Shown here piece after piece: positions 5,059-18,900 of a stretch of 32,706 bases of DNA (positions are counted from its first letter, which is position 1; the number at the start of each line of letters is the position of its first letter). The DNA is from a virus. The notes beneath the pieces were generated by a model that saw only the letters and a list, made by a program, of their open reading frames with translations, was not told the origin of the DNA and ran no database searches. A program made the position numbers and the translations under genes. The stretch is taken from positions 1 through 32,706 of the IMG/VR virus record IMGVR_UViG_3300018415_000021; one strand, given 5' to 3'.

Positions 5059-5081
5059 GATTTTTTTCCTTTCTCAGTGTC

Positions 5082-5132
5082 GTAGGTCATTTCCTACTCT
5101 GTTATTATCGGTGATTTTGACAAAAAAGGCAA
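5082..5132 (-). promoter_or_regulatory. Leftward early promoter with leader hairpin
   Basis: On the minus strand TTGCCT (5132-5127), a 17-nt spacer and GATAAT (5109-5104) form a sigma70-type promoter. The transcript would begin near 5098 and fold at once into a GTAGG/CCTAC hairpin (5097-5082, 6-nt loop). GAGAAAGGA (5075-5067) and the ATG at 5058 follow. The same layout recurs before the genes at 11244 and 18922. Confidence 0.8.
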
Positions 5133-5163
5133 CAAATAAATTGATTTTTATTATCAGTCAAAA

Positions 5164-5173
5164 CAAGGACTTA
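5164..5173 (-). promoter_or_regulatory. TAAGTCYTTG box (variant)
   Basis: On the minus strand this reads TAAGTCCTTG, about 32 nt upstream of the leftward -35. It matches the boxes upstream of the promoters at 11168 and 18848 with one change (C for T). It is a candidate activator or repressor site. Confidence 0.5.
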
Positions 5174-5203
5174 CAAATTTTTAAGAAGAAAGTTCCCAAA
5201 CAC

Positions 5204-5244
5204 TGGGTTGCGTTTCCCCATGTTTTTGAGTCTGGGAACGCCCA
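5204..5244. other. Imperfect inverted repeat in the divergent intergenic region
   Basis: TGGG at 5204-5207 pairs with CCCA at 5241-5244, and CGTTtCCC at 5211-5218 pairs with GGGAACG at 5234-5240 with small bulges and a loop of about 12 nt. A 7-bp inverted repeat, GTTCCCA/TGGGAAC (5192-5198 and 5233-5239), overlaps it and could give an alternative fold. It lies between the divergent transcription units, where an operator or replication origin is plausible. Confidence 0.4.
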
Positions 5245-5260
5245 ATTTCATTTTTCAATA

Positions 5261-5270
5261 CAAAGACTTA
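5261..5270 (-). promoter_or_regulatory. TAAGTCYTTG box (exact)
   Basis: On the minus strand this is TAAGTCTTTG, identical to the 10-mer upstream of both rightward promoters (11127-11136 and 18797-18806). It is further from the leftward promoter (about 129 nt) than the variant box at 5164, so it may serve the divergent region as a whole. Confidence 0.5.
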
Positions 5271-5289
5271 CGACCAACCGAAACCAACG

Positions 5290-5348
5290 AAACCACAAAT
5301 CTCAAAATTTTACACAACACAACAACAACCCAAAATATTCCCTTATAA
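5290..5348. other. G-free, A/C-rich tract in the non-coding control region
   Basis: The plus strand has no G for 59 bases, with runs such as ACACAACACAACAACAACCC. It is flanked by the hairpin region on the left and a T-rich stretch on the right. The 5133-5600 region holds no gene I can support, so this is candidate control or origin DNA: an easily melted or unstructured strand where a primase or single-strand binding protein could load (inference). Confidence 0.4.
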
Positions 5349-5479
5349 GAAAGAGGCCAAGGACGGGTCCAAAAACAGACGATGTTGAAAAGACTGGGAT
5401 CTTTGGTTTCGCAATTGTTTTTATTGAGGAAGAGTGGTTTCTTTGAAAAATTCTTCTTTTCTTTTGTTTTCGGTTCAGG

Positions 5480-5577
5480 CATAGTAACCTCGTGACTTGA
5501 GCGTGGACATCGTTCAGGACTGTTGGTGGCCTCAGTGCCATGATTAGTGACGCTACCTTGAGAAGCCTCAGTCACAC
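5480..5577 (+). promoter_or_regulatory. Possible rightward promoter and leader before the NrdR-like gene
   Basis: CATAGTAAC at 5480-5488 resembles the -10 regions of the clear promoters (CATACTAAC, GATACTAAC). No good -35 stands 17 nt upstream; the region is only T-rich. A leader fold is possible just before the ribosome site: GTGAC/GTCAC enclosing TGAG/CTCA (about 5547-5575). This is the weakest of the four promoter candidates, but a rightward start is needed somewhere here. Confidence 0.3.
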
Positions 5578-5600
5578 CATTGAGAAAGGATGCTATCATC

Positions 5601-5936
5601 GTGAATTGTATAAAGTGCAAGAAAAAGACATCAGTGCTTGACTCCCGCATGGACAAAGAGTCAAAAGGCACTCGTCGTAAACGCATTTGCGATTCATGTG
5701 GGCACACTTTCAGAACTCTTGAGACAGCGATACTTGAAGGTGCAACCCCACCTAAGAAAAAGGTAACAGCACCAAAAAAGCAACCGACCAGAAGGCAGAA
5801 AAAGATTCAAATGAATAAAAGGTTGCAAAAGTTTCGCCGTGAAGAGATCGCTCATCGCATTGATAATATGACGGATGATGAACTTGAAGAGGCAATTTTT
5901 TCAGGTGAAGATCTGAGGGAACTTGGCCTAGACTGA
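5601..5936 (+). CDS. NrdR-like zinc-ribbon protein, probable regulator
   Basis: The N-terminal 50 residues resemble the zinc ribbon of the bacterial regulator NrdR. A first CxxC (NCIKCKKK) is followed by VLDSR, a basic stretch TRRKRI, a second CxxC (CDSCGHTF) and RTLET. NrdR normally continues into an ATP-cone domain and represses ribonucleotide reductase genes. Here that domain is replaced by a Lys/Arg-rich linker (TPPKKKVTAPKKQPTRRQKK) and a short acidic helix ending GEDLRELGLD. DNA or RNA-polymerase binding is plausible; nucleotide sensing is not. The GTG at 5601 is chosen because it begins just before the ribbon and GAGAAAGGA lies 19 nt upstream. An upstream in-frame TTG at 5580 would overlap that motif. 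It is the first gene of the rightward arm, fitting an early regulator. Confidence 0.7.
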   Translation: MNCIKCKKKTSVLDSRMDKESKGTRRKRICDSCGHTFRTLETAILEGATPPKKKVTAPKKQPTRRQKKIQMNKRLQKFRREEIAHRIDNMTDDELEEAIFSGEDLRELGLD

Positions 5937-5943
5937 GAAAGGA
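5935..5943 (+). promoter_or_regulatory. GAGAAAGGA ribosome-site motif (representative of the series)
   Basis: Exact copies on the plus strand start at 5582, 5935, 6300, 9635, 11228, 13411, 13754, 18906 and 19438. One-base variants start at 7739 and 12752 (CAGAAAGGA) and 14875 (GAGGAAGGA). Minus-strand copies lie at 5075-5067 and 4471-4463. The first base stands 15-17 nt before the start codon in all but the NrdR-like gene (19 nt). The AAGGA part is a Shine-Dalgarno sequence; the fixed GAGA extension goes beyond it. Confidence 0.85.
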
Positions 5944-5949
5944 AAAAGG

Positions 5950-6318
5950 ATGCCTAAAGTTTATGTTGTGAATCGACCTGTGAAGAATAAGTTTGGTTGG
6001 GTGCCTGATTTGAGTGATGCCAGTAGGTATGGTGCACTTGAAGTTATTTTTGAGCCCAATGACAAACCCCAGTTTCTTCCTGGACCAAGCGTCCAGAAGG
6101 CTCGTCGAATCATGAAGGACTTCTCGTCAGAGGATTATCTCCTCTGGCCTGGAGGTGGTGACCCGATTGCTGTGATGATATCATGTATGATCGCTAGCGA
6201 AAAGGCCAACACAGTGCGTGTTCTCCGTTGGGAACGCAATATGGAAGAGGGTGAAAGGGATCGCCGTAAAGGTTGGTATATGCCTGTAGCCCTAGAACTG
6301 AGAAAGGAAAGCGTATGA
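5950..6318 (+). CDS. Conserved phage protein of unknown function, 122 aa
   Basis: Begins MPKVYVVNRPVKNKFGWVPD. A central segment has PQFLPGPSVQKARRIMKDF followed by the Gly/Pro-rich LLWPGGGDPIAVM. The C-terminus is rich in Arg and Glu (RWERNMEEGERDRRKG). It looks like a compact cytoplasmic alpha/beta protein with no membrane segment or metal site. I have an impression of relatives in aquatic phage genomes, without an assigned role. The start has GAGAAAGGA 15 nt upstream, and the stop overlaps the next start as ATGA. It therefore travels with the coiled-coil protein and the replication genes that follow. Confidence 0.75.
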   Translation: MPKVYVVNRPVKNKFGWVPDLSDASRYGALEVIFEPNDKPQFLPGPSVQKARRIMKDFSSEDYLLWPGGGDPIAVMISCMIASEKANTVRVLRWERNMEEGERDRRKGWYMPVALELRKESV

Positions 6319-6905
6319 CAGATATAGATCTGCTTGAGGACGTGGCACCAGCGTCCAATGAACTTGGTGCGATCGCTGACATGGCTCAAAGGATGCATGA
6401 TCTCGAAGATGAGATCAATCGTCTGGACGAGGCACTGAAAGCAAAGAAGCAGGATCTCAAGATGTTGGCAGAACAGGACTTGCCTGACTTAATGCAAGAA
6501 CTGAACATCAAGAACTTTACCCTGAGCAATGGTGCAAAGGTTGAAGTGAAAGATGTTATCCAAGCCTCCGTCCCATCCCAAGGTGCGATTGATCGTGTCA
6601 AGGATGAAGACGAGCGAGAGGCTATGCGGATACTCCAACAGCAGTGCTTTGAATGGTTAAGAGCCAATGGACTTGGCGACCTAATAAAAAGCAATGTTGA
6701 GGTTCAGTTTGGTCGTAATGAAGATGACGCATGCAACGCATTCACTGAAGAGTTGCGTGACCGAAAGATTTATTACAAGCGTGCAGTTGGGGTGCATCCG
6801 CAATCCCTCAATGCGACTCTTAAAGAGCGGTTGAGTGAAGGCAAAGATGTCCCTGTTGATTTGTTCCGTGTTTACATGGGACGCAGAGCCAACATAAGGA
6901 GATAG
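6315..6905 (+). CDS. Coiled-coil phage protein of unknown function, 196 aa
   Basis: Starts MTDIDLLEDVAPASNELGAI. Residues about 20-62 form a heptad-rich helix (MHDLEDEINRLDEALKAKKQ), followed by LMQELNIKNFTLSNGAKVEV, which looks like a small beta domain. The second half is mixed helix with a basic tail (GRRANIRR). The ATG at 6315 is preferred over an upstream in-frame start at 6273 because GAGAAAGGA lies 15 nt before it and the ATG overlaps the preceding stop (ATGA). A helix-then-beta architecture next to a likely DNA-binding protein and the primase suggests a replication or recombination accessory, but no motif proves it. Confidence 0.7.
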   Translation: MTDIDLLEDVAPASNELGAIADMAQRMHDLEDEINRLDEALKAKKQDLKMLAEQDLPDLMQELNIKNFTLSNGAKVEVKDVIQASVPSQGAIDRVKDEDEREAMRILQQQCFEWLRANGLGDLIKSNVEVQFGRNEDDACNAFTEELRDRKIYYKRAVGVHPQSLNATLKERLSEGKDVPVDLFRVYMGRRANIRR

Positions 6906-6906
6906 A

Positions 6907-7695
6907 ATGATGGCAAATGAAGTAGCAACTAAAAAAGAGTCCAATGTCGTAGCCTTTGATGAAAGCATCTTGCTTCAAGACGCAGGTGCAGGCCAAGAAG
7001 GCATGAACAAAGAGGACTTGATGATTCCTCGCCTAAGCATTTTGCAACAAATGTCACCACAAGTGAACAAGCGTGATGGTGCATATGTTCAAGGTGCAGA
7101 GCCAGGATTCATTCTTGACAATGTAGCCAACATAGCGACTGATGGCGAGAAAGGCATCACAGTGGTGCCAATCAGCTACAGACGTGCTCACATTGAGTGG
7201 AAGCCTGATAGAGGTGGCTTGGTCGCTGACCATGGACCTGACTCGGCTTGTCTTGAAAATTGCACTCGTGGAAGTCGTGGTGAATACCTGACAGACGAAG
7301 GCAACGAGATTGTCCCAACAGGTGAGTATTTTGTTTTCATAGTTGACGAAAACGGCTATACTCCCGCACTTCTTTCAATGGCAAAGTCACAATTAAAAAA
7401 GGCTCGCCAGTGGAACTCAATGATGAACAGGCTTATGGTTCAAGTCGGGGATCAAAAAATTAACCCTGCCATGTTCTGGACTGCCTATGATCTGACGACA
7501 GTTCCTGAAGAAAATGACCAAGGATCTTGGTTTGGTTGGTCGATCAAAATGAAGTATGACGCCAAGTCTGGTGGCATTTTGAAGAACCACCCCATGGGCA
7601 AAGATATTTATCTTGCTGCTCGTGAGTTCAAATCTCAGGTCGCATCAGGTGAAGTGAAAGTTTCTCCTGAGTCACAAGATGATGATGTAATGTAA
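6907..7695 (+). CDS. Phage protein with acidic tail; possible ssDNA-binding/recombination accessory
   Basis: 262 residues. A charged N-terminus is followed by MIPRLSILQQMSPQVNKRDG and a beta-rich core with KGITVVPISYRRAHIEWKP. Later comes LSMAKSQLKKARQWNSMMNR, and the C-terminus is short and acidic (SPESQDDDVM). This layout is common in phages just before primase or helicase genes. An acidic C-terminal tail is typical of single-strand DNA-binding proteins, which use it to contact replication partners. That is the basis for the tentative role; no conserved OB-fold signature can be confirmed by eye. Two ATGs lie in tandem at 6907 and 6910 behind AAGGAGAT. A GCAA-loop hairpin follows the stop. 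Confidence 0.6.
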   Translation: MMANEVATKKESNVVAFDESILLQDAGAGQEGMNKEDLMIPRLSILQQMSPQVNKRDGAYVQGAEPGFILDNVANIATDGEKGITVVPISYRRAHIEWKPDRGGLVADHGPDSACLENCTRGSRGEYLTDEGNEIVPTGEYFVFIVDENGYTPALLSMAKSQLKKARQWNSMMNRLMVQVGDQKINPAMFWTAYDLTTVPEENDQGSWFGWSIKMKYDAKSGGILKNHPMGKDIYLAAREFKSQVASGEVKVSPESQDDDVM

Positions 7696-7709
7696 TCATT
7701 GCTCATCTA

Positions 7710-7731
7710 GGGGGAGGGGCAACTCTCCCCC
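7710..7731 (+). other. Stable intergenic hairpin with GCAA tetraloop
   Basis: GGGGGAGGG (7710-7718) and CTCTCCCCC (7723-7731) pair over 9 bp with one G-U around GCAA. It sits 8 nt before CAGAAAGGA, the ribosome motif of the primase gene. There is no U-tract, so RNA stabilisation, processing or partial attenuation is more likely than termination. It is the sister of the hairpin at 4481-4500. Confidence 0.75.
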
Positions 7732-7753
7732 GACGACTCAGAAAGGAACTGAA

Positions 7754-9292
7754 ATGGATTCTGCAATAACCAAAAGATTTATGCGTCTGTTCCGTGGCTA
7801 TGAAAAAGCCCATGGCGAATATCGTGTGCAGAAAAAAGAAGCAGACGGCAAAATGTCTGGTCGTGCAGTCACAGTGGCCGAACCAGCAACAACCGAACAT
7901 TTTGAAGCCCACCTCAAAGGTGGCGACTACATTCTTGGAATCATAATGTTGCGTGAAAACAACTCATGCAATTTTGGAGTTATTGATATTGACATCCGAG
8001 GCGAGGTAAAACTTAACGAGTCGCTTGAATCGTTGGAAAAGAAAATTGAAGATACGCCTCTTGTTTTGTGCCGCTCTAAGTCTGGTGGTGCTCATCTTTA
8101 TTTGTTTTGTGAACCTGCGATTGCCGCTATTGATATGGTGGCTAAACTTAACGAGTTCGCTGCAACATTAGGTTATGGTGGGGCTGAAATTTTCCCCAAG
8201 CAAATTTCTCGTGCCAATGAGCGTGACAGAGGCAACTGGATCAATCTCTGTTATTGGGATGGCGACGACTCTGAACGCCACGCAATCCACAAAGGCAAAA
8301 AACTTAACCTCAAGCAATTTTTAGATCTTGCTGAGAAAAAGCAAACCAACTACGAGTCTCTTGAAAACTTCACTCCAGAACTTATCAATATGTTTGAGGA
8401 TGGACCACCCTGCCTCCAACACATCATGACAATGGGCTTTCCAGAAGGTGGCCGAAACATTTCTTTGTTCAATGTGGGTGTTTATTACCGTAAGAAGAAT
8501 CCAGACGACTGGCAAGAAGATTTGATGCGATTCAACTATGAGCATCTGCCTGAGCCACTCCCCAGTGGTGAGGTCAATGGCCTAATCAAGTCTGTTTCAA
8601 AAAAGGATTACGCCTACACCTGCAAGCAAGCACCAATCTGCAACTATTGTGAAAAGTCCAAATGCATGAAGCGTGAATATGGCGTGGGTGGGGTTGGTGG
8701 TGGCCAAGCCATAGAGATTGATGCCATAACAAAATACGAAACTGAAAACCGATCATCAGTGCGTTGGTATATTGAAATACAAGGCGAGCGTATTGAGGTG
8801 ACCACTCAGCAACTTCTTGATCAGCGTCAGCTGCAAAAACTTTGTGTTGAGAAGTTGAACAAATGCCCAAGCACAATGCCAGCCCAACGCTGGGAGCAAC
8901 GTATCAATGAACTGTTGGGGTCTGTTGAAGTTGTTGTTGACCCAGATGATGCATCTCCGCAGGGTCAGTTTGAAAAGATGCTTGACTCATTCCTGACTGG
9001 TAAAGTGCAGGCTCGTCATCGTGATGAGATCATGAACGCCAAACCATGGCACGACTCTGATGAGGGCAAAGTCTATTTTCGCTCCGAAGACCTTTTTATA
9101 TATCTGGACGCCAGACGCTTCCGCTATCCCTCCCAACACCAAGTTTGGTCATGGCTAAGAAATCTCGGTGGTGACAGAAAAACCTTTCGGATTAAGTCAA
9201 AACCAGTTAAAGTATGGTCAGTCCCAGCACCTGAATTCTATGATGATGAAGATGACTTGGACATCCCAACAACTGTGACGGAGGAGTTTTAA
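7754..9292 (+). CDS. Archaeo-eukaryotic-type DNA primase (AEP/TOTE-like)
   Basis: 512 residues. The N-terminal half has the AEP primase signature: FGVIDIDI with metal-binding Asp78 and Asp80, RSKSGGAHLYLF at about 107-118 with His114 for nucleotide binding, and AEIFPKQ near 144-150. This matches the primase domain of TOTE-type elements and many phage primases. A primase C-terminal segment follows (residues about 215-310), ending in a Cys cluster, CKQAPICNYCEKSKC (Cys290, 296, 299, 304), that could hold a metal or Fe-S centre. The last 200 residues are a separate domain that I do not recognise, with an acidic stretch near the end (DDEDDLDIP). It would make primers for the DnaE-like polymerase encoded at 15986. 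The start has CAGAAAGGA 15 nt upstream, and the stop overlaps the next start as TAATG. Confidence 0.82.
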   Translation: MDSAITKRFMRLFRGYEKAHGEYRVQKKEADGKMSGRAVTVAEPATTEHFEAHLKGGDYILGIIMLRENNSCNFGVIDIDIRGEVKLNESLESLEKKIEDTPLVLCRSKSGGAHLYLFCEPAIAAIDMVAKLNEFAATLGYGGAEIFPKQISRANERDRGNWINLCYWDGDDSERHAIHKGKKLNLKQFLDLAEKKQTNYESLENFTPELINMFEDGPPCLQHIMTMGFPEGGRNISLFNVGVYYRKKNPDDWQEDLMRFNYEHLPEPLPSGEVNGLIKSVSKKDYAYTCKQAPICNYCEKSKCMKREYGVGGVGGGQAIEIDAITKYETENRSSVRWYIEIQGERIEVTTQQLLDQRQLQKLCVEKLNKCPSTMPAQRWEQRINELLGSVEVVVDPDDASPQGQFEKMLDSFLTGKVQARHRDEIMNAKPWHDSDEGKVYFRSEDLFIYLDARRFRYPSQHQVWSWLRNLGGDRKTFRIKSKPVKVWSVPAPEFYDDEDDLDIPTTVTEEF

Positions 9293-9513
9293 TGACTTCA
9301 CCCCACGATGATTTCAAGCAGAGGCAAAAAGTCAACTGCCATGAAAGAGTCAAAAAAATGACTGAGGCAAAGGCCAATGACATGGTTGACAGAACACTCG
9401 GGATCTTGCGTAACTGTGCAGTGCCAAAAGACTATTTCAAAGATGTTGAAAAAATGATTGAGCATTTTGAATATTTAAGAAACGGGAACACAGTTTATGT
9501 CGAAAGAGAATGA
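9292..9513 (+). CDS. Small hypothetical protein, 73 aa
   Basis: A charged, mostly helical protein beginning MTSPHDDFKQRQKVNCHERV, with a central helix (MTEAKANDMVDRTLGILRN) and an acidic C-terminus. It has no membrane segment or metal motif. The ATG overlaps the primase stop as TAATG, with GGAGGAG just upstream, and the stop overlaps the next gene by 17 bp. It is therefore translated with the primase and could be a small partner of it (inference). Confidence 0.65.
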   Translation: MTSPHDDFKQRQKVNCHERVKKMTEAKANDMVDRTLGILRNCAVPKDYFKDVEKMIEHFEYLRNGNTVYVERE

Positions 9514-9721
9514 ATACGAAAGACACTACGAAAGATTCATAGAGTGCGACTTTTGTGGCAAGATGACTCGTGGTCGCATTTGGCGTAATGAGCCGACAAA
9601 GGTAAAGTGTGGTTCATGCCACCACGTGCTAACTGAGAAAGGAACTGAACATGAGACGAGTGCAAATAATACTTGGACCACCAGGAACAGGCAAGACAAC
9701 AACCCTACTGAGGATCGTTGA
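9497..9721 (+). CDS. Small zinc-ribbon protein, 74 aa
   Basis: The product has a CDFCGK knuckle near residues 18-23 and a second CGSCHH near 38-43, a four-cysteine zinc ribbon spaced as in small nucleic-acid-binding or RNA-polymerase-like ribbons. The tail after residue 50 is low in structure. The frame runs 71 bp into the helicase gene, and the helicase's ribosome motif (9635-9643) lies within it. Such a long overlap is unusual here, where most overlaps are 1-17 bp. The ribbon itself ends before the overlap, so the tail may be incidental. The ATG at 9497 has only a weak upstream signal, consistent with coupled translation. Confidence 0.6.
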   Translation: MSKENEYERHYERFIECDFCGKMTRGRIWRNEPTKVKCGSCHHVLTEKGTEHETSANNTWTTRNRQDNNPTEDR

Positions 9722-11111
9722 AGATGCACTGAGCAGAGGCATCGCTCCTGAGCGGATAGCCTATTTGGCCTTCACTCGCAAAGCAGCATACGAGGCTCAA
9801 GAAAGAGCCATGGCACAGTTTGGTTTTGATGAAGGCAGATTCCCCTACTTCAGAACACTTCACTCTTTAGCCTTCAAAGAACTTGGCCTCCAAAGAGACG
9901 AGGTAATGACCAATGCACACTATCGCAAGTTGGGCAAGGCTTTGGGTGTTGAGTTCAAAGGCATTTATGATGAGAACCTTGGCATTCATGTTGGGGATGG
10001 GCTTGGTGACAAGTGCTCAAGAATTGAATCATTGGCAAGAGTTGGCCTCAGAGACTTGGAGTCTCAATATCAACTTACACAAATCAATGATCTGACTCTT
10101 CACGCAGTCAAGCAATATGACACTGCCCTCAGGACTTACAAGCATGACAATGGGCTTTTGGACTTCACAGACATGCTTGAAAAATTCTCAGCACCACTCC
10201 CAGTAGACATTTGCATCATTGACGAGGCTCAAGACCTCAGTTCGCTTCAATACAAAATGGCTATCATGGCCTCCCAAAATGCTGAGGAAGTCTACATTGC
10301 TGGCGATGACGACCAAGCCATCTTTGGTTGGGCTGGGGCTGATGTCAATAAGTTTTTAACCCTTAAAGGTGACCGAATGGTTCTGCCTCAGAGTTACCGC
10401 ATCCCTCGCTCAGTGCACAGATTGGCTGCAGAAGTTGTTGGCCGTATAAAACACCGCTATGTCAAGCCATGGCGACCAAAGAGCGAAGAAGGCTCTGTTG
10501 ATTATGTTGCGGATGAACAGCAGATTGATTTCTCAGGCGAGGGAACTTGGATGTGCTTGTCACGCAGTAAATATTTGATGAACAGATTTCAACAATCCGT
10601 GAGGCAACAGGGCTATGCCTACACCTACAACGGCAAGCACTCTCTTGAGTCTGAGGAGACTCGAGCCATACTGACTTGGGAAAGATTGCGCAAAGGCAAT
10701 AAGGTCTCTTTACACGAGGCCAAAAATGTTATACAATTTTTTGGATTCAATGTGAATCTAGTGAAACAAGAATCATATGGCTTGACTGATTTGGGTCTGC
10801 CTGAGGATGCAAAGAATTTTGATTGGATGACAATGTTGAGAGGGATAGCCCCAGACGAAAGAGAATATTTAAGGTCATGCTTGCGCAATGGTGAAAAGTT
10901 TTCAGACAAGCCAAGAATCAACATCTCAACCATCCACCAATCCAAATGTGGTGAGGCTGACAATGTTGTTTTGGCGACTGACATGGGTCGGCTGAGTTGG
11001 GAGAACTCTCACACAGATGAAGAGAACCGAGTCTGGTATGTTGCACTGACCAGAGCCAAGCAAAATCTCCTCATCGTGAGGCCAAGAAGTTTGAGGCACT
11101 ATGCAATTTAA
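9651..11111 (+). CDS. UvrD/Rep-like superfamily 1 DNA helicase
   Basis: 486 residues with the SF1A motifs in order. Motif I is GPPGTGKTTT at residues 9-18, Ia is IAYLAFTRKAAYEAQ, II is IIDEAQD near 190, III is IAGDDDQAIFGWAGAD, IV is LPQSYRIPRSVH, V is ISTIHQSKCGEADNVV, and VI is RVWYVALTRAKQNLLIV. It is shorter than bacterial UvrD (about 720 residues), with small inserted domains, as in phage Dda-like helicases. It would unwind DNA 3'-5' or displace proteins at the fork. Motif I lies so near the N-terminus that the ATG at 9651 must be the start, and GAGAAAGGA stands 16 nt before it. A promoter follows the stop, so this gene ends the first rightward unit. Confidence 0.92.
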   Translation: MRRVQIILGPPGTGKTTTLLRIVEDALSRGIAPERIAYLAFTRKAAYEAQERAMAQFGFDEGRFPYFRTLHSLAFKELGLQRDEVMTNAHYRKLGKALGVEFKGIYDENLGIHVGDGLGDKCSRIESLARVGLRDLESQYQLTQINDLTLHAVKQYDTALRTYKHDNGLLDFTDMLEKFSAPLPVDICIIDEAQDLSSLQYKMAIMASQNAEEVYIAGDDDQAIFGWAGADVNKFLTLKGDRMVLPQSYRIPRSVHRLAAEVVGRIKHRYVKPWRPKSEEGSVDYVADEQQIDFSGEGTWMCLSRSKYLMNRFQQSVRQQGYAYTYNGKHSLESEETRAILTWERLRKGNKVSLHEAKNVIQFFGFNVNLVKQESYGLTDLGLPEDAKNFDWMTMLRGIAPDEREYLRSCLRNGEKFSDKPRINISTIHQSKCGEADNVVLATDMGRLSWENSHTDEENRVWYVALTRAKQNLLIVRPRSLRHYAI

Positions 11112-11122
11112 TTTCTTAAAAA

Positions 11123-11222
11123 TTCATAAGTCTTTGAAAATGCTGAGAAAGAAAATCACTTTCTTTGTTGCCTTTTATGACAAATTGGCGCATACTAACA
11201 GGACAGTCAGAAAAATTCTGAC
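11123..11222 (+). promoter_or_regulatory. Rightward early promoter with upstream box and leader hairpin
   Basis: TTCATAAGTCTTTGAA (11123-11138) contains the TAAGTCTTTG box. TTGCCT (11168-11173), a 17-nt spacer and CATACT (11191-11196) follow as -35 and -10. The leader folds into GTCAGAA/TTCTGAC (11206-11222, 3-nt loop), followed by TTTTT and then GAGAAAGGA at 11228-11236. The hairpin plus short U-run also looks like a weak attenuator. Confidence 0.82.
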
Positions 11223-11243
11223 TTTTTGAGAAAGGAAAAAATC

Positions 11244-11822
11244 ATGAAAGCGTTTGCTATTGACTACAAACAAAACACCATCCGTGCCTTCAGCTCTAAG
11301 CGTATCGCTCAGAAAATGGGCAATGGCTTGGTTGTTTTCAGTTCCGTTGACGAGTTGCTTGAAAATCGCAACACCACCAATCAAGGTATCGTCAGAGTTT
11401 ACAACAACAACACCAAAGTCGCAGTGAAGAGATTCGCTGACACTCGCACAGGTGCAGCCAGACTTCTGAAACTGGCTCAAGAGATTCCTGTGGAGCAAAC
11501 ACCTTTTGAACACCTGAATGGAGAAAAGAAAATGAATGAGGAAATCCTCAATCAAGACGACAACAAAGCAGATGTTGAAGTTCATGTCAAGTCAGCCAAT
11601 GCCACAAAGAAGCGTGGACGCAAGGCTGGGTTTGAAGGCAAGATGATTCGTGCTCTTGTTGAAAAGAACCCTCGTCGTCAGAACACTCATGGCTTTCATT
11701 CCATGGGCATCCTCATCAATGCTGGCGAGCCAGTGAGTTATGAGTCATACATAGCTCAAGGTGGTCGTCGTCAAGATCTGGCTTGGGATATTCAAAAAGG
11801 CTATGCGGGGATTTTAGACTGA
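11244..11822 (+). CDS. Conserved phage protein of unknown function, 192 aa
   Basis: The N-terminal domain begins MKAFAIDYKQNTIRAFSSKR and contains VRVYNNNTKVAVKRFADTRT. A linker is followed by a basic KKRGRKAGF (residues about 122-130). The C-terminal domain contains GFHSMGILINAGEPVSYESY and DLAWDIQKGYAGI. I recognise the C-terminal part as recurring in unrelated phages, where the basic GRKA segment suggests nucleic-acid contact; no function is established to my knowledge. The ATG at 11244 is chosen because GAGAAAGGA lies 16 nt before it; an in-frame TTG at 11226 would put the motif inside the gene. As first gene behind a promoter it is probably abundant early. Its stop overlaps the flavoprotein start (TGATG). 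Confidence 0.75.
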   Translation: MKAFAIDYKQNTIRAFSSKRIAQKMGNGLVVFSSVDELLENRNTTNQGIVRVYNNNTKVAVKRFADTRTGAARLLKLAQEIPVEQTPFEHLNGEKKMNEEILNQDDNKADVEVHVKSANATKKRGRKAGFEGKMIRALVEKNPRRQNTHGFHSMGILINAGEPVSYESYIAQGGRRQDLAWDIQKGYAGILD

Positions 11823-12766
11823 TGATTATTTACGGAGCAGGGCTGGCAGGGTTGCTAGCAGGAAATATGATGCGCAGTTTCAAACCAGTGGTTTGTGAGG
11901 CTCAAAAAGAACTGCCGAACAATCATGGAGCTCTGCTCCGATTCCGCACCGACAAGGTTGGCACTGCTTGTGCCATCCCTTTCAAAAAGGTCAAAGTTCA
12001 AAAGGCTATCAAGTATGATGGCAAGATCACGACCACCCCAAATCTGTTCTTGAGCAATCTGTATTCTCAAAAGGTCACAGGTTCAATTCTGAACAGATCA
12101 ATCAACAACCTTGCTCCTGTTGAGCGATACATCGCACCATGGGACTTGATCAACCAGATGGCAGGAAACTGCAACATTGAATATTCAGCCAAGTTGACTC
12201 TCGGCGATCTTGAGGACACACGTGAGTGGGAGCCTAACCGACCAATCATATCAACCATACCCATGCCAGCACTCATGAAGATTGTGAAGTGGAAAGGCAT
12301 CCCTGAGTTCCCTGCCCAGCAGGTCTGGACGCAAAAAGGTCGCATTGATTCGCCAGAGTGTGATGTTTATCAAACCATTTATTATCCTGACCCGACTGTC
12401 CCATATTATCGCATATCTTTGATTGGTGACATTGTCATCTCTGAATTTGTGCGCAAGCCTGACGGAGCGATTGGTCCACACTTGATGAGTGTGTTGATGG
12501 ATGACTTTGGTATCAAGCCCAACTCAATCGTTGATCTGAAACAATCAGAGCAATATTACGGAAAGATCCGACCCATTAATGAGGATCTGCGTAAACAATT
12601 CATATTTGAAATGACAACCAAGTATGGCATCTACTCGCTGGGTAGGTTCGCAACTTGGCGTCAACTTTTACTTGATGATGTTGTGGATGACCTGCAGCAC
12701 ATTGAAGGATTCATACGAGCAAAGTCGGACTACGCTCGTTTGATGCACTCTCAGAAAGGAGAATAA
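11822..12766 (+). CDS. Rossmann-fold FAD/NAD(P)-dependent oxidoreductase-like protein
   Basis: 314 residues. The N-terminus MIIYGAGLAGLLAGNMM has the GxGxxG dinucleotide-binding loop of FAD-dependent enzymes, and VVCEAQKELP supplies the acidic residue that would bind the adenosine ribose. Later, RPIISTIPMPALMKIV resembles the second strand-turn region in amine-oxidase or UDP-galactopyranose-mutase-like flavoproteins. The catalytic region does not match a family I can name. It lies between the 192-aa protein and thyX, 1 nt from the thyX start, so a link with flavin-dependent thymidylate synthesis, flavin supply or base modification is possible but unproven. The ATG at 11822 overlaps the previous stop, and the GxGxxG begins five residues in, so upstream starts are unlikely. 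Confidence 0.7.
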   Translation: MIIYGAGLAGLLAGNMMRSFKPVVCEAQKELPNNHGALLRFRTDKVGTACAIPFKKVKVQKAIKYDGKITTTPNLFLSNLYSQKVTGSILNRSINNLAPVERYIAPWDLINQMAGNCNIEYSAKLTLGDLEDTREWEPNRPIISTIPMPALMKIVKWKGIPEFPAQQVWTQKGRIDSPECDVYQTIYYPDPTVPYYRISLIGDIVISEFVRKPDGAIGPHLMSVLMDDFGIKPNSIVDLKQSEQYYGKIRPINEDLRKQFIFEMTTKYGIYSLGRFATWRQLLLDDVVDDLQHIEGFIRAKSDYARLMHSQKGE

Positions 12767-12767
12767 C

Positions 12768-13412
12768 ATGAAAGTCCAATTGATAAGTTACACCGATGAT
12801 GCAGTTAATCTACTGCTATTCACAAAGAACACTCGTCTCATGAATGATGACGATGCCTATTCACAGATCGCTGAATGGCCTGACGAGAAAAAGCAGGAGG
12901 AGCTGGATTACATGCTTCAGACCATCCGCTCATCTTGGGAGTTCATTGACTACACATTTAACATCCGTGATGTCAGCAGAGGCTTCACTCACCAGTTCGT
13001 GCGGACTCGTCAGGCTTCATATGCCCAACAGTCTCAGCGAACAGTTGATATGAGTGGGTTCGGGTATTACACTCCACCACGCATCGCCGAGAATGAAGTT
13101 GCCAAGGCTCTGTATGATAAGGCTATGGCTGACATCAATGATTCGTATCAGGCATTGCGGGAGATTGTTCCTGCTGAAGATGCTCGTGGCGTTTTGCCAA
13201 CTAACATCCATACCAATATCGTCGCCAAATTCAACCTGCGCACACTGAGTGAGATGGCCAAGTCTCGTCTCTCTCCAAGAGCACAAGGTGAATACCAAGA
13301 GGTGTTCAAACTCATGGTGAGTGAAGTTGTCGCAGTCCATCCTTGGGCTGAGCCATTCTTGACCCCAACTGAGTGGGCAGCACCATCCATGTATAAAGCA
13401 CTCAACAAGTGA
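12768..13412 (+). CDS. thyX: Flavin-dependent thymidylate synthase ThyX
   Basis: ThyX makes dTMP from dUMP using methylene-tetrahydrofolate and reduced FAD. The 214 residues match the family's length (about 220). The signature RHRxxSxxxxSxR appears as RTRQASYAQQSQR at residues 79-91, with His replaced by Thr at position 80. IHTNIVAKFNLRTLSEMAKS near 164-183 fits the C-terminal substrate-binding helices. The start at 12768 has CAGAAAGGA 16 nt upstream and lies 1 nt after the flavoprotein stop. In a phage it supplies thymidine nucleotides during genome replication independently of the host enzyme. The family call is firm; the effect of the His-to-Thr change on activity is unknown. Confidence 0.93.
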   Translation: MKVQLISYTDDAVNLLLFTKNTRLMNDDDAYSQIAEWPDEKKQEELDYMLQTIRSSWEFIDYTFNIRDVSRGFTHQFVRTRQASYAQQSQRTVDMSGFGYYTPPRIAENEVAKALYDKAMADINDSYQALREIVPAEDARGVLPTNIHTNIVAKFNLRTLSEMAKSRLSPRAQGEYQEVFKLMVSEVVAVHPWAEPFLTPTEWAAPSMYKALNK

Positions 13413-13426
13413 GAAAGGAATGAATC

Positions 13427-13732
13427 ATGGCACGCAGAAAGATAAAGCAAATCACAGTTGATAAAGTTCATGCCCTGAGAAAAGATGGGCTGACAGCATC
13501 CGCAATATCAAAGAAAGTGAAGTTGCCTCTGAACACAGTCAACTACATCCTGTATCATAAAAAGCCCACATACACAAAGGCTCAGTTAGCAAAAGCACTT
13601 GAGCCAGGATTGAACGAACTTTTTGGCACAGAACAATCTTCTCTCGATGAAGTTTATGCTGAGGCAGACAAGGCTGTCAAAAACGCTGATTCAGTTTTGA
13701 AGCGTATAAAAAGGCTTTTGTTTGGATCGTAG
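13427..13732 (+). CDS. Small helix-turn-helix DNA-binding protein, 101 aa
   Basis: The N-terminus is basic (MARRKIKQITVDK). Residues about 14-40 read as a resolvase- or sigma-like helix-turn-helix: VHALRKDGLTASAISKKVKL, then PLNTVNYILYHKKP. The rest is helical and ends in basic residues (KRIKRLLFGS). It is a candidate regulator, perhaps of the TAAGTCYTTG boxes, though nothing in the sequence links the two directly. The start has GAGAAAGGA 16 nt upstream. A possible weak promoter for the next gene overlaps its 3' end. Confidence 0.7.
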   Translation: MARRKIKQITVDKVHALRKDGLTASAISKKVKLPLNTVNYILYHKKPTYTKAQLAKALEPGLNELFGTEQSSLDEVYAEADKAVKNADSVLKRIKRLLFGS

Positions 13733-13744
13733 ATAAGGTAAAAT
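13716..13744 (+). promoter_or_regulatory. Possible weak promoter
   Basis: TTTTGT (13716-13721), a 17-nt spacer and TAAAAT (13739-13744) make a weak sigma70-like pair before the gene at 13770. It lacks both the TAAGTCYTTG box and the leader hairpin of the clear promoters, so it may be chance in AT-rich DNA. Confidence 0.25.
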
Positions 13745-13769
13745 AACCCAACTGAGAAAGGAACAAACG

Positions 13770-14279: not shown

Positions 14280-14701
14280 TCATTTGTGATCTTGACGGAA
14301 CTCTGTCTGACTACACTCACCGCATCCGCTACTACAAACAGCGTGATTACGAGAAGTTCAATTCAGAGGGCATCAACGACAAGCCAATCCAAAACATCTG
14401 CAATATTGTCCGCATGCTTGCTGATGACGATGAGACTGAAATAGTCGTAATGACAGCTCGTAACGAACAACACCGCAAGGACACTGAAAAGTGGCTGAGG
14501 CTGAATGATGTTCCTTTCAATAGGTTGATCATGAGACCTGATGGTGACATGGCTTCTGATCCTGATTGCAAAAAGAAGTTGCTTGATGAGCACATAAATT
14601 ACAAAAATGTTTGGTTTGTGCTTGAGGACAGAAAGGTTGTTGTTGACATGTGGAGAGGCGAGGGTCTTACCTGCCTCCAAGTTGCTCCAGGAGACATATG
14701 A
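14264..14701 (+). CDS. HAD-superfamily phosphatase, Pnk 3'-phosphatase-like
   Basis: 145 residues with the HAD motifs. Motif I is CDLDGT with nucleophile Asp9 and acid/base Asp11; motif II is VVMTARNEQHRKDTEKWL with Thr64; a basic stretch near 103-105 gives motif III; and FVLEDRKVVVDMWR supplies the motif IV acids at 121-122 and 128. The TAR...R..T..WL run and EDRxxVVDMWR closely resemble the 3'-phosphatase domain of T4 polynucleotide kinase. It would remove 3'-phosphates from nucleic-acid ends, or act on nucleotides. No kinase domain is fused, unlike T4 Pnk. ACGGAGG precedes the ATG, which lies 16 bp inside the previous gene. Confidence 0.85.
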   Translation: MDKRIIICDLDGTLSDYTHRIRYYKQRDYEKFNSEGINDKPIQNICNIVRMLADDDETEIVVMTARNEQHRKDTEKWLRLNDVPFNRLIMRPDGDMASDPDCKKKLLDEHINYKNVWFVLEDRKVVVDMWRGEGLTCLQVAPGDI

Positions 14702-14958
14702 TGCTTGAGTTGAGATTACTTGGAAACGACATTGAGTTGGACAGGGAAAAGGTTGCTAGGGTGTTTGATGTCCGTGCAACTTTACGATGGGAACTTGAAC
14801 AAGCCATTGAGCGAGCGAATGTTAGTGATGACGACATTCAGTCTCGCATAGACGAAGCATATGAAAAAGGTTATGAGGAAGGAAAAGAATATGGTCTCGA
14901 AGAAGGACGCCAAGAAGGATATGAGCAACGAGAGTCTGAAGAACAGAAAGCCAATTGA
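14698..14958 (+). CDS. Small coiled-coil protein with Tyr-Glu-Gly repeats, 86 aa
   Basis: Begins MMLELRLLGNDIELDREKVA, then a charged helix. The C-terminal third is a short-period repeat of YEKGYEEGKEYGLEEGRQEG type, so that part is likely an extended helix or oligomerisation segment. The ATG at 14698 overlaps the phosphatase stop (ATGA) with CCAGGAG upstream; the adjacent ATG at 14701 is equally possible. The ribosome site and start of the next gene are embedded in its 3' part. Function is unknown. Confidence 0.65.
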   Translation: MMLELRLLGNDIELDREKVARVFDVRATLRWELEQAIERANVSDDDIQSRIDEAYEKGYEEGKEYGLEEGRQEGYEQRESEEQKAN

Positions 14959-15259
14959 GTGCATTGAAGAGGCTCTTGCCACTTTCAAACAACGCAACAA
15001 ACAATATGGCGACAACTATCTTCAGCATGGTCAGGTGATGACTGCTCTGTTCCCCAAAGGCATTAAGTTGGAAACAGTTGAAGACTGGAACAGATTCGGC
15101 ATCGTCAACATGGTCGTGGCTAAGTTGACTCGCTATGCTCAGGCTTGGCCTCAAGTCAACAAGAGCACAATTGATTCAGTTCATGACTTGGGTGTTTATG
15201 CATTCATGCTTGAGTCTTTGGATTCATTCAAGTGGGGAGCAGAAGATGATAGTGTTTGA
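14891..15259 (+). CDS. Phage protein resembling the DUF6378/MazG-like type, 122 aa
   Basis: After a Lys-rich N-terminus the core reads IEEALATFKQRNKQYGDNYL. Then come LETVEDWNRFGIVNMVVAKL and STIDSVHDLGVYAFMLESL. The order (EAL...RxxxYGD, a helix with KLxRY, then DSxxDLxxYAxML) is that of a phage protein type I associate with DUF6378 and, distantly, all-alpha nucleotide pyrophosphohydrolases. The key metal-binding Glu cluster of true MazG is not obvious, so enzymatic activity is uncertain. The start at 14891 is chosen because GAGGAAGGA lies 16 nt before it, a one-base variant of the phage's ribosome motif placed inside the preceding gene. It overlaps the exonuclease gene by 14 bp. Confidence 0.65.
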   Translation: MVSKKDAKKDMSNESLKNRKPIECIEEALATFKQRNKQYGDNYLQHGQVMTALFPKGIKLETVEDWNRFGIVNMVVAKLTRYAQAWPQVNKSTIDSVHDLGVYAFMLESLDSFKWGAEDDSV

Positions 15260-15779
15260 CCTAGAGACCACAGGTTTGCCCAAAGCGGAAGGTTCTGACC
15301 TAGACATTCAACCTCGCATCATTGAGTTCGGTGCAATCAAACTGGACGACAATCTTGAGGAGGTTGAGAGGCTTGAGTTCTTCTGCAATCCTGGGCACCC
15401 ACTTGACCCACAGATCATCAAGATCACAAACATCACCGACGACATGCTCAAAGATGAAAAGCCATTCATCGCGAACTACAAGCCTTTGTGTGAATTCTTC
15501 CTTGGTGAAAAATCAATTGTCGCTCATAACTTGCCTTTTGATAGGAAGATATTAAAATTTGAATTGGAGAGGCTTGACAAACTCACCAAGTTCCCATGGC
15601 CGTATGATCACATCTGCACAGTTGAGGTCGGAGAGTCAGTCTGGGGCAAAAAGCGTAAACTGGGCGACATCTATGAAGATCTGTTCGGTGAAAAGATAGA
15701 GGGAGCACACCGCTCAATCAACGATGTGGAAGCAACTGTCCGCATCATCCAATGGTATAAAAAGGAGGGACATATATAA
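15246..15779 (+). CDS. DnaQ-like 3'-5' exonuclease (DEDDh, proofreading type)
   Basis: 177 residues with the three exonuclease motifs. ExoI is VFDLETTGL with Asp5 and Glu7, ExoII is AHNLPFDRKI with Asp99, and ExoIII is GAHRSINDVEAT with His155 and Asp160. The histidine marks the DEDDh branch, as in the epsilon subunit of DNA polymerase III. Because the phage polymerase has lost the metal ligands of its PHP domain, this enzyme is a good candidate for its separate proofreader. The ATG at 15246 has GGGGAGCAGAAG upstream and starts only four residues before the first catalytic Asp. An upstream in-frame ATG at 15135 would sit inside another gene. The stop overlaps the next start as TAATG. Confidence 0.9.
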   Translation: MIVFDLETTGLPKAEGSDLDIQPRIIEFGAIKLDDNLEEVERLEFFCNPGHPLDPQIIKITNITDDMLKDEKPFIANYKPLCEFFLGEKSIVAHNLPFDRKILKFELERLDKLTKFPWPYDHICTVEVGESVWGKKRKLGDIYEDLFGEKIEGAHRSINDVEATVRIIQWYKKEGHI

Positions 15780-15850
15780 TGGATCCAGCAACTATCGGTT
15801 CAATCGTAGGTGCATTGGTTTTCATTCTTATCAAAGCAGCACTGCAATGA
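15779..15850 (+). CDS. Very small membrane peptide, 23 aa
   Basis: The product begins MDPATIGSIVGALVFILIKA and is nearly all one hydrophobic helix with a single Lys near the end. The ATG overlaps the exonuclease stop (TAATG), an AAGGAGG sits 9 nt upstream, and its stop overlaps the next ATG (ATGA). That combination supports a translated gene despite the length. It would sit in the inner membrane; its role is unknown. It could instead be only a coupling ORF that carries ribosomes to the next gene. Confidence 0.5.
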   Translation: MDPATIGSIVGALVFILIKAALQ

Positions 15851-16011
15851 CAGCGAATGAAATTCAAAGCCACATAGAAAAGATGATCCGCAGGTGGGAA
15901 GAAACCTACACAATCGCTCCTGCGGATTACATTTCAAAACATCAAATGTCAAGCGACATATTATTTTTAGTCAAACAGGTGAAAAATGCTGAACATAAGA
16001 ACCAGGACTGA
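15847..16011 (+). CDS. Small helical protein, 54 aa
   Basis: Begins MTANEIQSHIEKMIRRWEET and continues as amphipathic helix (ISKHQMSSDILFLVKQVKNA). It lies between the membrane peptide (ATGA overlap) and the polymerase gene (26-bp overlap), so it is probably translated with the polymerase. A longer in-frame start at 15724 would run inside the exonuclease gene and is less likely. No family recognised; a small replisome partner is one idea, without direct evidence. Confidence 0.55.
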   Translation: MTANEIQSHIEKMIRRWEETYTIAPADYISKHQMSSDILFLVKQVKNAEHKNQD

Positions 16012-18799
16012 ATACAGTTTCCGTAAAGCCTATGGACCAATCAACAAGGTCATTGAGGCTATCAGCGGAGAGGCTGTTGGCATTTGTGATTCTGGGACTT
16101 GGGGTCATGTGAATTTTGAGCACGCCTGTAAAAAAGCAAACATCAAGCCTCTGCTTGGGGTTGAGATTCCGATCGTGGGAGACGCAACAGATCGCTCAAA
16201 ACAACCAGCCAATGACATGGCATTCATAGCCAAGAACAATGATGGCTTGACAGAGATATATCAGTTGGTGACCAAGAGCACCGACAAAGATCATTTTTAT
16301 TATCATCCTCGTCTCAGTTACGAGGACTTATTTGATATCAGCGACAATGTTATAATTTTAAGTGGAACGAACCCAGATTGGGGATTGTTGCCTTTGACCA
16401 AAAAAGACACTCTTTATATTGAGTTGAATCCAATGAGCACCCGCAAGGCTCTGGACTTCGCAGAGAAAAAAGGCTTTCAAGTCGTGGCCACCTCTGACAA
16501 CTTTTATCCCAAGACCACAGACAAAAAGGCATACGAGGTGTTGGTCGGTCGCAACCGCACAGACCGCACAGCCCAGATGCACATCCTCAATGAGTGGGAG
16601 TGGAGAGACGCAGTGCCATGGGCACCAGAGTCAGCCATTGAGAACACCTACAAGATTGCTGAGATGTGCGACGCAAGTTTGCCAACCGCACAGATGGTTT
16701 CATTTCACGCTGAAAAGACTTTGCGCCAAATGTGTGAGGAAGGTGCACCACCACGCAACATTGACCTCACTGACCCAGTTTATGAGGCTCGTCTTGACCG
16801 AGAGTTGAAGTTGATTGCAGAAAAAGAGTTTGAGGACTATTTTTATGTCATCGCTGACATGATTAACTACGCCAAAGAACACATGCTCGTTGGACCAGCC
16901 AGAGGCTCATCATCAGGCTCACTAGTTTGCTACCTCACAGGCATCACAGACATTGACCCGATTCAGCATGACTTGCTGTTTGAGAGATTCATTGACATCA
17001 CTCGTGAAGACTTGCCTGATATTGATATTGATTTTCAGGACGACCGCAGAGAGATGGTGTTTGAATATCTAAGGCAAAAGTATGGTGCGGAAAAGGTTGC
17101 CCACTTAGGAACAGTCTCTCGCTACAAAGCCAAAAGCACAATCGCAGAAGTTGCCAAAGAACTTGGCATTCCAGCATGGGAAGTGAACGACCTCAAAGGT
17201 GCAATCATTGAACGCAGTTCTGGTGACTCTCGTGCAGCGTTTTGCATTCTTGACACATTCAACGAACTTGATGTTGGCAGAAAGGTGCTTGAGAAATATC
17301 CTCAGATCAAAGTTGCCGCAGACATGGAGAATCATGCCCGACACAATGGCGTTCATGCCGCAGGTATCATTGTCACTGAATATCCCGTCAGCCAATATTG
17401 TTCGGTGTCAGGCCAAACAGGTGCAGCCCAGATTGACAAAAAGGACGCAGAGGATCTTAATCTGCTGAAGATTGATGCTTTGGGCTTGAGGACTTTATCG
17501 GTGCTTCAAGATGTTCTTGATCAGGTTGGGTGGACTCGTGATCAGTTGATAAAATATCCTCTTGAGGATGAAGAGGCATTCAAAGTCCTGAACGACGAAA
17601 AATATGCAGGGATCTTTCAGTTTGAAGGCTACGCATTGCAGTCTGTGACTCGTCAGATGAAAGTGCATAAGTTTGAAGACATCGCAGCAATCACTGCTTT
17701 GGCTCGTCCTGGACCACTCAACTCAGGAGGCACAACTCAGTTCATCAAACGCCACACAGGTGCGGCACCAGTTGAGTATCTTCACCCAATGACTGAGGCC
17801 ATCACAAAGGTGACCAATGGGGTCGTGGTGTATCAGGAACAAGTGATGACAATAGCCAGAGATGTGGGTAAGTTGTCATGGGAAGATGTATCAACCCTCC
17901 GCAAAGCAATGTCCAAGTCATACGGCAAAGAATACTTTGACACATTCTGGGAAAGATTCAAAGTTGGTGCAGCTGAGAATGACATCCCTGAAGACCAAGC
18001 CCAACGCATTTGGGACAACATTAACACAATGGGCTCATGGGCATTCAACCGCTCACATGCAATCGCATATGGCCTAGTCAGCTATTGGTGTTGCGTTTTG
18101 AAGAGCAAGTTTCCTCTGGAGTTTGCTGCTGCTTGCCTCCGCAATGTGAAAGATGACGAACAAGCTGTCAGGCTTTTGCGTGAGGTTGTTAAAGAAGGAC
18201 TCAACTACAAGTCATTTGACAAATTCAAATCAAAGGCCAACTGGTCGGTGCAAGATGGTGAGTTGATCGGTGGTTTGATCGGTATCAAAGGTATCGGTCC
18301 AAAAATGGCTGAGGACATCGTTAACAGACGTGAGATGGCCCAACCTCTGACTCCTCGCCAAGAATCGCTCCTGGACAACGGGAGCACACCCTACGACGAT
18401 ATTTTTGAGTGTGAGAGAAGGTTCGGACACATCAAGGCTGACCCAGCCGCACACAAGATTGTTTCACCCATCACTGACATCATTGATTTGGACGCTGACA
18501 ATCCAGGAATGTTTGTGTTCTTCGGGAAGTTGAAAGAGAAGAACTTGCGGGACATGAATGAGACAGTCAATCTAGCCAAGCGTGGCGGTCGCAGAGTTGA
18601 GAACAATAACCTATGGCTGAATGTGACTTTTGAGGATGACACTGGCCCAATCATTTCAACCATTGATCGTTTCAAATATTCACGCATGGGCAAGCCCATA
18701 GTTGAGGATGGCAGACTTGGTGATTGGTATCTCGTGAAAGGCCAAATCAAAGCAGGATTCAGAAAGATTTATGTAGAAAAAATTCGTAAACTTTCATAA
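15986..18799 (+). CDS. dnaE-like: C-family DNA polymerase (DNA polymerase III alpha/DnaE-like)
   Basis: 937 residues. The catalytic PDIDIDF at 344-350 gives Asp345, 347 and 349. FVYL-like palm and finger regions follow, with ALARPGPLNSGG, VVYQEQVMTIAR and SWAFNRSHAIAYGLVSYW. A helix-hairpin-helix, GLIGIKGIGPKMAEDIV, lies near residue 770, and a C-terminal OB-like segment starts with MFVFFGKL. Bacterial DnaE is about 1160 residues, so the N-terminal PHP domain is reduced. The usual HSxxS and TDHG metal ligands appear as RTEYSF and CDSGTWG, so PHP exonuclease activity is unlikely. The separate DEDDh exonuclease encoded just upstream could supply proofreading. The polymerase probably replicates the phage genome with the AEP primase. 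The start at 15986 has only GGTGAAAA upstream and lies inside the preceding gene. Confidence 0.93.
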   Translation: MLNIRTRTEYSFRKAYGPINKVIEAISGEAVGICDSGTWGHVNFEHACKKANIKPLLGVEIPIVGDATDRSKQPANDMAFIAKNNDGLTEIYQLVTKSTDKDHFYYHPRLSYEDLFDISDNVIILSGTNPDWGLLPLTKKDTLYIELNPMSTRKALDFAEKKGFQVVATSDNFYPKTTDKKAYEVLVGRNRTDRTAQMHILNEWEWRDAVPWAPESAIENTYKIAEMCDASLPTAQMVSFHAEKTLRQMCEEGAPPRNIDLTDPVYEARLDRELKLIAEKEFEDYFYVIADMINYAKEHMLVGPARGSSSGSLVCYLTGITDIDPIQHDLLFERFIDITREDLPDIDIDFQDDRREMVFEYLRQKYGAEKVAHLGTVSRYKAKSTIAEVAKELGIPAWEVNDLKGAIIERSSGDSRAAFCILDTFNELDVGRKVLEKYPQIKVAADMENHARHNGVHAAGIIVTEYPVSQYCSVSGQTGAAQIDKKDAEDLNLLKIDALGLRTLSVLQDVLDQVGWTRDQLIKYPLEDEEAFKVLNDEKYAGIFQFEGYALQSVTRQMKVHKFEDIAAITALARPGPLNSGGTTQFIKRHTGAAPVEYLHPMTEAITKVTNGVVVYQEQVMTIARDVGKLSWEDVSTLRKAMSKSYGKEYFDTFWERFKVGAAENDIPEDQAQRIWDNINTMGSWAFNRSHAIAYGLVSYWCCVLKSKFPLEFAAACLRNVKDDEQAVRLLREVVKEGLNYKSFDKFKSKANWSVQDGELIGGLIGIKGIGPKMAEDIVNRREMAQPLTPRQESLLDNGSTPYDDIFECERRFGHIKADPAAHKIVSPITDIIDLDADNPGMFVFFGKLKEKNLRDMNETVNLAKRGGRRVENNNLWLNVTFEDDTGPIISTIDRFKYSRMGKPIVEDGRLGDWYLVKGQIKAGFRKIYVEKIRKLS

Positions 18800-18900
18800 G
18801 TCTTTGAATTTGTTGAATATAAAAAACACTTTCTTGTTATTTTTTTGTTGCCTTTTTACCCAGAAAGAGCGATACTAACAGAGTAAGGGAAATTGTTCCC
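18793..18900 (+). promoter_or_regulatory. Rightward early promoter with upstream box and leader hairpin
   Basis: TTCATAAGTCTTTGAA (18793-18808) is identical to the 16-mer at 11123. It begins within the polymerase's last codons. TTGCCT (18848-18853), a 17-nt spacer and GATACT (18871-18876) follow. The leader folds as GGGAA/TTCCC (18887-18900, 4-nt loop), followed by ATTTT and GAGAAAGGA (18906-18914). The hairpin sequence differs from the other two but its place is the same. Confidence 0.82.

Follow-up and report, generated by a model that had tools for sequence, protein, structure and literature searches.

A recurring promoter module with a helix-phased upstream box and optional leader hairpins in a marine phage

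The 32.7-kb virus record IMGVR_UViG_3300018415_000021, analysed here over its whole length (positions 1 to 32,706, the window), belongs to a marine tailed phage and contains three promoters, P1, P2 and P3, each followed by a leader that can fold into a hairpin. Comparison with related records shows, as far as sequence can tell, a family in which the core promoter is accompanied by a phased upstream box and by a leader that holds either a hairpin or nothing, the hairpins changing in ways that preserve pairing. The phased box is a more unexpected part of the result than the stems. Judged by gene content only, the three promoters are presumably early.

Core promoters and their leaders

All three promoters have −35 and −10 hexamers about 17 nt apart, in the sigma-70-type arrangement TTGCCT-17-NATANT. 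The pattern TTGCCT N14-20 ATANTAAC occurs exactly three times in 32.7 kb (0.00 expected from 100 dinucleotide shuffles), and each occurrence lies precisely where an earlier reading made from the letters alone (the sequence-only reading) had placed a promoter. That reading also described TAAC behind the −10; AAC does follow in each case, but the T is the last base of the −10 hexamer itself. The stems it proposed (GTAGG/CCTAC, GTCAGAA/TTCTGAC and GGGAA/TTCCC) are all present, starting 6–10 nt past the −10 and ahead of GAGAAAGGA. The elements are listed below; core promoters are read from the sequence, and leader hairpins come from predicted folds and comparison.

5104..5132, minus strand: P1 core promoter, TTGCCT-17-GATAAT
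11168..11196, plus strand: P2 core promoter, TTGCCT-17-CATACT
18848..18876, plus strand: P3 core promoter, TTGCCT-17-GATACT
5082..5097, minus strand: P1 leader hairpin, GTAGG-AAATGA-CCTAC
11205..11223, plus strand: P2 leader hairpin, AGTCAGAA-AAA-TTCTGACT
18887..18900, plus strand: P3 leader hairpin, GGGAA-ATTG-TTCCC
5067..5075, minus strand: ribosome-binding site GAGAAAGGA of the P1 gene
11228..11236, plus strand: ribosome-binding site GAGAAAGGA of the P2 gene
18906..18914, plus strand: ribosome-binding site GAGAAAGGA of the P3 gene

The element that the sequence-only reading saw after the stems is indeed there, but it is merely the general ribosome-binding site of this phage: GAGAAAGGAAA with at most one mismatch occurs 13 times in the window against 1.24 expected, mostly without a promoter. 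We take GAGAAAGGA to be the complement of the alphaproteobacterial 16S rRNA 3′ tail. Taken singly, each window stem is weak evidence, that of P3 most of all, and Rfam 15 gave no match above gathering score in the window. The evidence for the stems comes from comparison, in which all the long leaders of the family fold.

Relatives were collected by pattern scans of IMG/VR and by protein searches with the three genes downstream of P1, P2 and P3; L-numbers label the compared sequence records (L036 is CRP-901, L037 is CRP-902). A relaxed scan also drew unrelated low-G+C phages, which were filtered out by the type of their −35, by their ribosome site and by their start codon. At least 64 distinct promoters of the P1/P2/P3 type were found among the matches listed, giving 46 non-redundant leaders (less than 80% alike), whose counts are not population frequencies: two scans demanded leaders of at least about 12–15 nt, and the matches are those listed. 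Most of the IMG/VR records with the same promoters also carry relatives of the window terminase (77–95%) and polymerase (76–94%). Their −35 variants (TTGCCT, TTGCTT, TTTACT and TTTCTT) are each paired with NATANT, and conservation reaches about 80 bp upstream of the promoters, to a TAAGTCNTTG box.

The leaders, measured from the −10 as far as TGAGAAAGGA, have a bimodal length distribution: 7–14 nt in 22 of the 46, 17–20 nt in 3 and 23–33 nt in 21. Every leader in the longest class (21/21) forms a hairpin, and none of the shorter ones does (0/25). The hairpin is single, has 4–11 bp, begins 0–6 nt from the presumed +1 and ends 0–4 nt before TGAGAAAGGA. Folding differs from mononucleotide shuffles at p<0.05 in 20 of the 21 long leaders and from dinucleotide shuffles in 15 of them, with a combined (Fisher) p of about 1e-19 in tests that treat related leaders as independent. 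When the 5′ and 3′ halves were swapped between leaders, none of 1000 permutations gave chimeras that reached the mean energy of the true leaders; each stem half fits its own partner only. Once the hairpin is subtracted, the long leaders average 8.8 nt, near the bare-leader mean of 10.6 nt.

Homologous stems, their arms aligned by hand, change by G-U-tolerant and fully compensatory steps. Among L132, L138 and L134 one pair reads G-C, G-U or A-U, and another changes from G-C to C-G. Between the P2 stem of the window and those of L057 and L071, three inner pairs differ by G-U-tolerant steps only, while one pair is gained and one lost at the outer end. The window carries GGGAA/TTCCC at the P3 locus, where L022 has GTAGGA/TTCTAC and L023 has GGGA/TCCC, yet the proteins encoded downstream are 90–92% identical. 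The relatives thus agree with the earlier claim of conserved structure and unconserved sequence, in the uniform folding of leaders of at least 23 nt, in the failed half-swaps and in the compensatory changes; the search for such changes, which the sequence-only reading had recommended, was run on these IMG/VR relatives.

By this comparison the stem is a conserved option and not a constant, which orthologous promoters swap, shrink or lose. About half of the sampled promoter copies have a hairpin. The P2 orthologues of L050–L056 retain the promoter, the box and the ribosome site, but their leader is just the bare 7-nt AACAAGA; at P3 the leader has shrunk to 18 nt in L024/L025 and forms no stable stem, and in L029 it is 11 nt long and stemless. 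Before the P3 gene of L028, L031 and L033–L035 there is neither a promoter of this type nor a stem, and CRP-901 and CRP-902 use another promoter, so that the loss of both features, which the sequence-only reading had named as evidence against itself, holds in part of the clade. Its proposal of selection for a 5′ stem applies where the leader carries an insert, but not to the bare or shrunken leaders of orthologues.

Whole promoter modules also seem to be gained and lost between genes. Behind the P3 gene lies another (19437, plus strand, MNF...) that in L013, L023 and L024 is preceded by a separate promoter of this family and in the window by a ribosome site only.

An upstream box at helix-phased distances

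The TAAGTCNTTG motif lies upstream of all three promoters and occurs just 4 times in the window, against 0.28 expected. The boxes at the promoters, all IHF-like, are the following.

5164..5173, minus strand: P1 upstream box TAAGTCCTTG, starting 41 bp upstream of the −35
11127..11136, plus strand: P2 upstream box TAAGTCTTTG, starting 41 bp upstream of the −35
18797..18806, plus strand: P3 upstream box TAAGTCTTTG, starting 51 bp upstream of the −35 and overlapping the stop codon of the DNA polymerase III alpha subunit (PolIII-alpha) gene

The box, with consensus YAAGTNNTTGATW, resembles an IHF site and had no place in the sequence-only reading. In the form [TC]AAG[TC]N2-3TTG it is found in 24 of 44 non-redundant promoters, against 0.57 expected. 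The IHF consensus is WATCAANNNNTTR, and the reverse complement of the box consensus, TATCAATGACTTA, matches it; many relatives match the nine constrained IHF positions exactly.

The position of the box is restricted to a few distances. With one mismatch allowed, 27 of 30 matches start 31–33, 41 or 51–52 bp upstream of the −35. A strict search for box plus core, with the distance left free over 23 values, gave 21 matches in 25 records (0 with the reversed pattern), and 20 of the 21 fall at the same distances. Orthologues can differ by 10 bp: P1 has 41 bp in the window and 51 in L041, P2 has 41 and 51 in L050, and P3 has 51 and 41 in L027. At a fourth locus the distance is 41 bp in L024 and 51 bp in L013 and L023. 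Clustered distances and 10-bp differences between orthologues are most simply read as a helix-face constraint, in which periods of 9 to 10.5 bp cannot be told apart. IHF is a plausible ligand of the box. No IHF or HU gene was found in the phages searched, so a host protein would act.

The fourth TAAGTCTTTG box of the window (5261–5270, minus strand) lies upstream of the P1 box by about 100 bp, has no recognisable TTGCCT promoter and is surrounded by an extended non-coding region containing palindromes. A stem at 5195–5207 on the minus strand, CCCAGTGTTTGGG, directly precedes the P1 box; it is retained with changes in relatives (CCCAGACTCTGGG in L014, CCCAGAGTCTGGG in L044) and is possibly the terminator of the preceding transcript.

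Possible functions and rival explanations

The preferred reading, held tentatively at a little under an even chance, is that these are host-sigma-70 promoters, probably IHF-assisted, whose mRNAs carry an interchangeable 5′-terminal stem that shields the RNA end and insulates the ribosome site. The three sites would be copies of one phage promoter module, read by host sigma-70 RNA polymerase. The IHF-like box, on one helix face and with its centre roughly 60, 70 or 80 bp ahead of the start, would probably activate by bending DNA toward the polymerase. Transcription probably starts 6–7 nt past the −10, so the hairpin, where present, is predicted to form within about 6 nt of the 5′ end. As a generic 5′-terminal shield, the stem may hinder 5′-end-dependent RNA decay and stop upstream sequence from pairing with the ribosome site. 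Its sequence would drift and stems would be replaced because only pairing matters, and it would be optional because bare 7–14 nt leaders already put the ribosome site almost at the 5′ end. From these patterns we infer the role of IHF, the RNA protection and insulation, and the early timing. End protection and insulation are inseparable by sequence alone; the stems found between genes, described below, favour a share for insulation.

An N4-type hairpin promoter was dropped on sequence inspection: the stems lie downstream of a complete −35/−10 pair and share no common loop. The PF00940 profile was silent everywhere, controls included, and is uninformative on a phage-encoded T7-type RNA polymerase.

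Several observations count against the preferred reading. The P3 stem in its full leader is indistinguishable from shuffles (z −0.22; P1 −2.38, P2 −1.44), and many promoters of the family have no stem. Stems also stand before intergenic ribosome sites, where a 5′-end role would require RNA processing. Each window box is one base off the IHF consensus, and the IHF likeness was noticed after the fact.

It is a serious possibility that the phased box serves, instead of IHF, an activator encoded by the phage or another one from the host. The box has conserved letters beyond the IHF consensus (G at position 4), and the mismatch in every window copy fits such a protein as well; the exact matches to all nine constrained positions in many relatives speak for IHF, and the lack of an IHF/HU gene in the phages searched is consistent with use of the host's.

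The stem might also act on translation alone, as an insulator that adjoins the ribosome site and holds it accessible whatever sequence precedes it, without influencing RNA decay. This explanation, which is rather unlikely, draws on stems followed by GAGAAAGGA between genes, one of which is listed here.

4481..4500, minus strand: intercistronic hairpin GGGGGAGG-GCAA-CCTCCCCT, no recognised promoter, before the ribosome site 4471-4463

This stem sits between two genes and is stronger than the leader stems. At the same intercistronic place, L040, L041 and L044/L045 have other stems and L014 has none. Hairpins at p<0.05 are present at 10 of 51 control ribosome sites that lack a promoter, roughly fourfold the expected number. 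The intercistronic stems and the control sites together suggest that the stem-plus-ribosome-site module does not depend strictly on a transcription start. That promoter stems end so close to TGAGAAAGGA (0–4 nt) also suits an insulator; however, the gap from stem to ribosome site is wider between genes, and a bare 7–14 nt leader has nothing to be insulated from, so that a stem at the 5′ end needs another reason. Further strong stems stand right before GAGAAAGGA sites without a promoter at L057:2387 and L071:6729.

Binding of the stems by a phage or host protein that controls these genes is improbable. ATTGG-like loops recur in P3 of the window and in L044, L045, L103 and L091, as do GGGA/TCCC stems, but loops and stems are otherwise unconserved, unlike those of the T4 gene 43 operator, which makes a specific RNA-binding protein unlikely.

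Less probable still are promoter-proximal attenuators or terminators under control of translation or an antitermination protein. P2 (GTCAGAA/TTCTGAC, then TTTTT) and L073 (CCTCTTTTTT) do resemble weak terminators. A GC-rich stem with a U-run is not found in all members, however: P1 and the TTGGGA-type leaders have no U-run behind the stem. Because the U-run is not conserved, attenuation is unlikely; moreover, no alternative fold or conserved sequence is apparent and stems are freely lost. The antitermination option of the sequence-only reading is disfavoured on the same grounds.

Chance or relatedness, in the form of a duplicated promoter cassette whose variable part folds by accident, would account for the clearly homologous promoter copies and the insignificant P3 stem, but is highly improbable given that 21 of 21 long leaders fold, half-swaps fail, unrelated stems occupy one locus and compensatory pairs occur.

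It is conceivable, if doubtful, that leader hairpins in this phage clade are interchangeable cassettes gained, lost or swapped at a constant position between promoter and ribosome site, with selection acting on pairing and perhaps on intragenomic difference, and that the activator site moves in whole helix turns.

The phage and comparison with known systems

By large terminase subunit (78% identity), the closest cultured relatives of the phage are the Roseobacter phages CRP-901 and CRP-902, whose host is a CHAB-I-5 Roseobacter strain (PMC10149686). The window encodes PolIII-alpha, ThyX, a UvrD-type helicase, an SNF2-type helicase, a polynucleotide kinase phosphatase domain and Pam3 gp32/33/34-like proteins. 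At 5950–9292 (plus strand) the Pam3 gp32/gp33/gp34-like genes precede one whose product has a TOTE-type archaeo-eukaryotic primase domain, and the genome has a PolIII-alpha gene as well. A strong terminator-like stem with a T-run, AGCCCAGCACAACGCTGGGCT (3916–3936, minus strand), separates the P1 gene cluster from the terminase genes. The first genes behind the promoters are as follows.

4510..5058, minus strand: first gene after P1, 182 aa, no Pfam match
11244..11822, plus strand: first gene after P2, 192 aa, no Pfam match
18922..19434, plus strand: first gene after P3, 170 aa, no Pfam match

Named phages gave no DNA match to window positions 10500–13500, no tblastn match to the P3 protein and just short matches at chance level to the P3 promoter. 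CRP-901 and CRP-902 gave no match to the window PolIII-alpha, and the exact cassette pattern had 0 matches in a collection of cellular genome contigs. A search of the literature on roseophage leader stems and on leader hairpins of phage early promoters found no description of the present module. The early-region genes of CRP-901 and CRP-902 have a different repeated element, TTGTAATCTGTGACAGATGTCATATAT...GAGAGAGAGG, without the window-type promoter. TTGTAATCTGTGACAGATGTCATATAT then GAGAGAGAGG stands upstream of gp24, gp25, gp27 and gp29 in CRP-901 and of gp25, gp26, gp28 and gp29 in CRP-902; the spacer holds a palindrome, TGACANNTGTCA, as if repressor-controlled.

The lambda pL promoter is an IHF-activated phage early promoter. 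Another precedent is Mu Pe (references in PMC3820752). Like these, the present module has a sigma-70 promoter with an upstream IHF-type site, here a candidate; unlike them, the box stands at three helix-phased distances across one phage clade, with one mismatch per window copy.

For 5′-terminal stems, precedents are the ompA and papA mRNAs (Emory 1992; Bouvet and Belasco; Bricker 1999; references in PMC3997798). As there, the stem lies upstream of the ribosome site and pairing counts rather than sequence; with the presumed phage start it would also lie at or near the 5′ end. In contrast to the ompA and papA stems, the present stems belong to phage mRNAs, are replaced between orthologues, are often absent and are predicted stabilisers only. 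The T4 gene 43 operator is likewise a hairpin upstream of a phage ribosome site, but its conserved loop is bound by gp43 and it overlaps the ribosome site, whereas the leader stems here have neither a conserved loop nor such an overlap (PMC3014915).

These results offer a sequence-based view of how an uncultured marine phage group may start gene expression. The dozens of homologous promoters form a natural comparative experiment, varying in the presence of a 5′ stem and in the number of helix turns from box to core. Each of the two features leads to predictions, and the stems are relevant to the question of why a structured 5′ end may be needed by some phage mRNAs and not by others.

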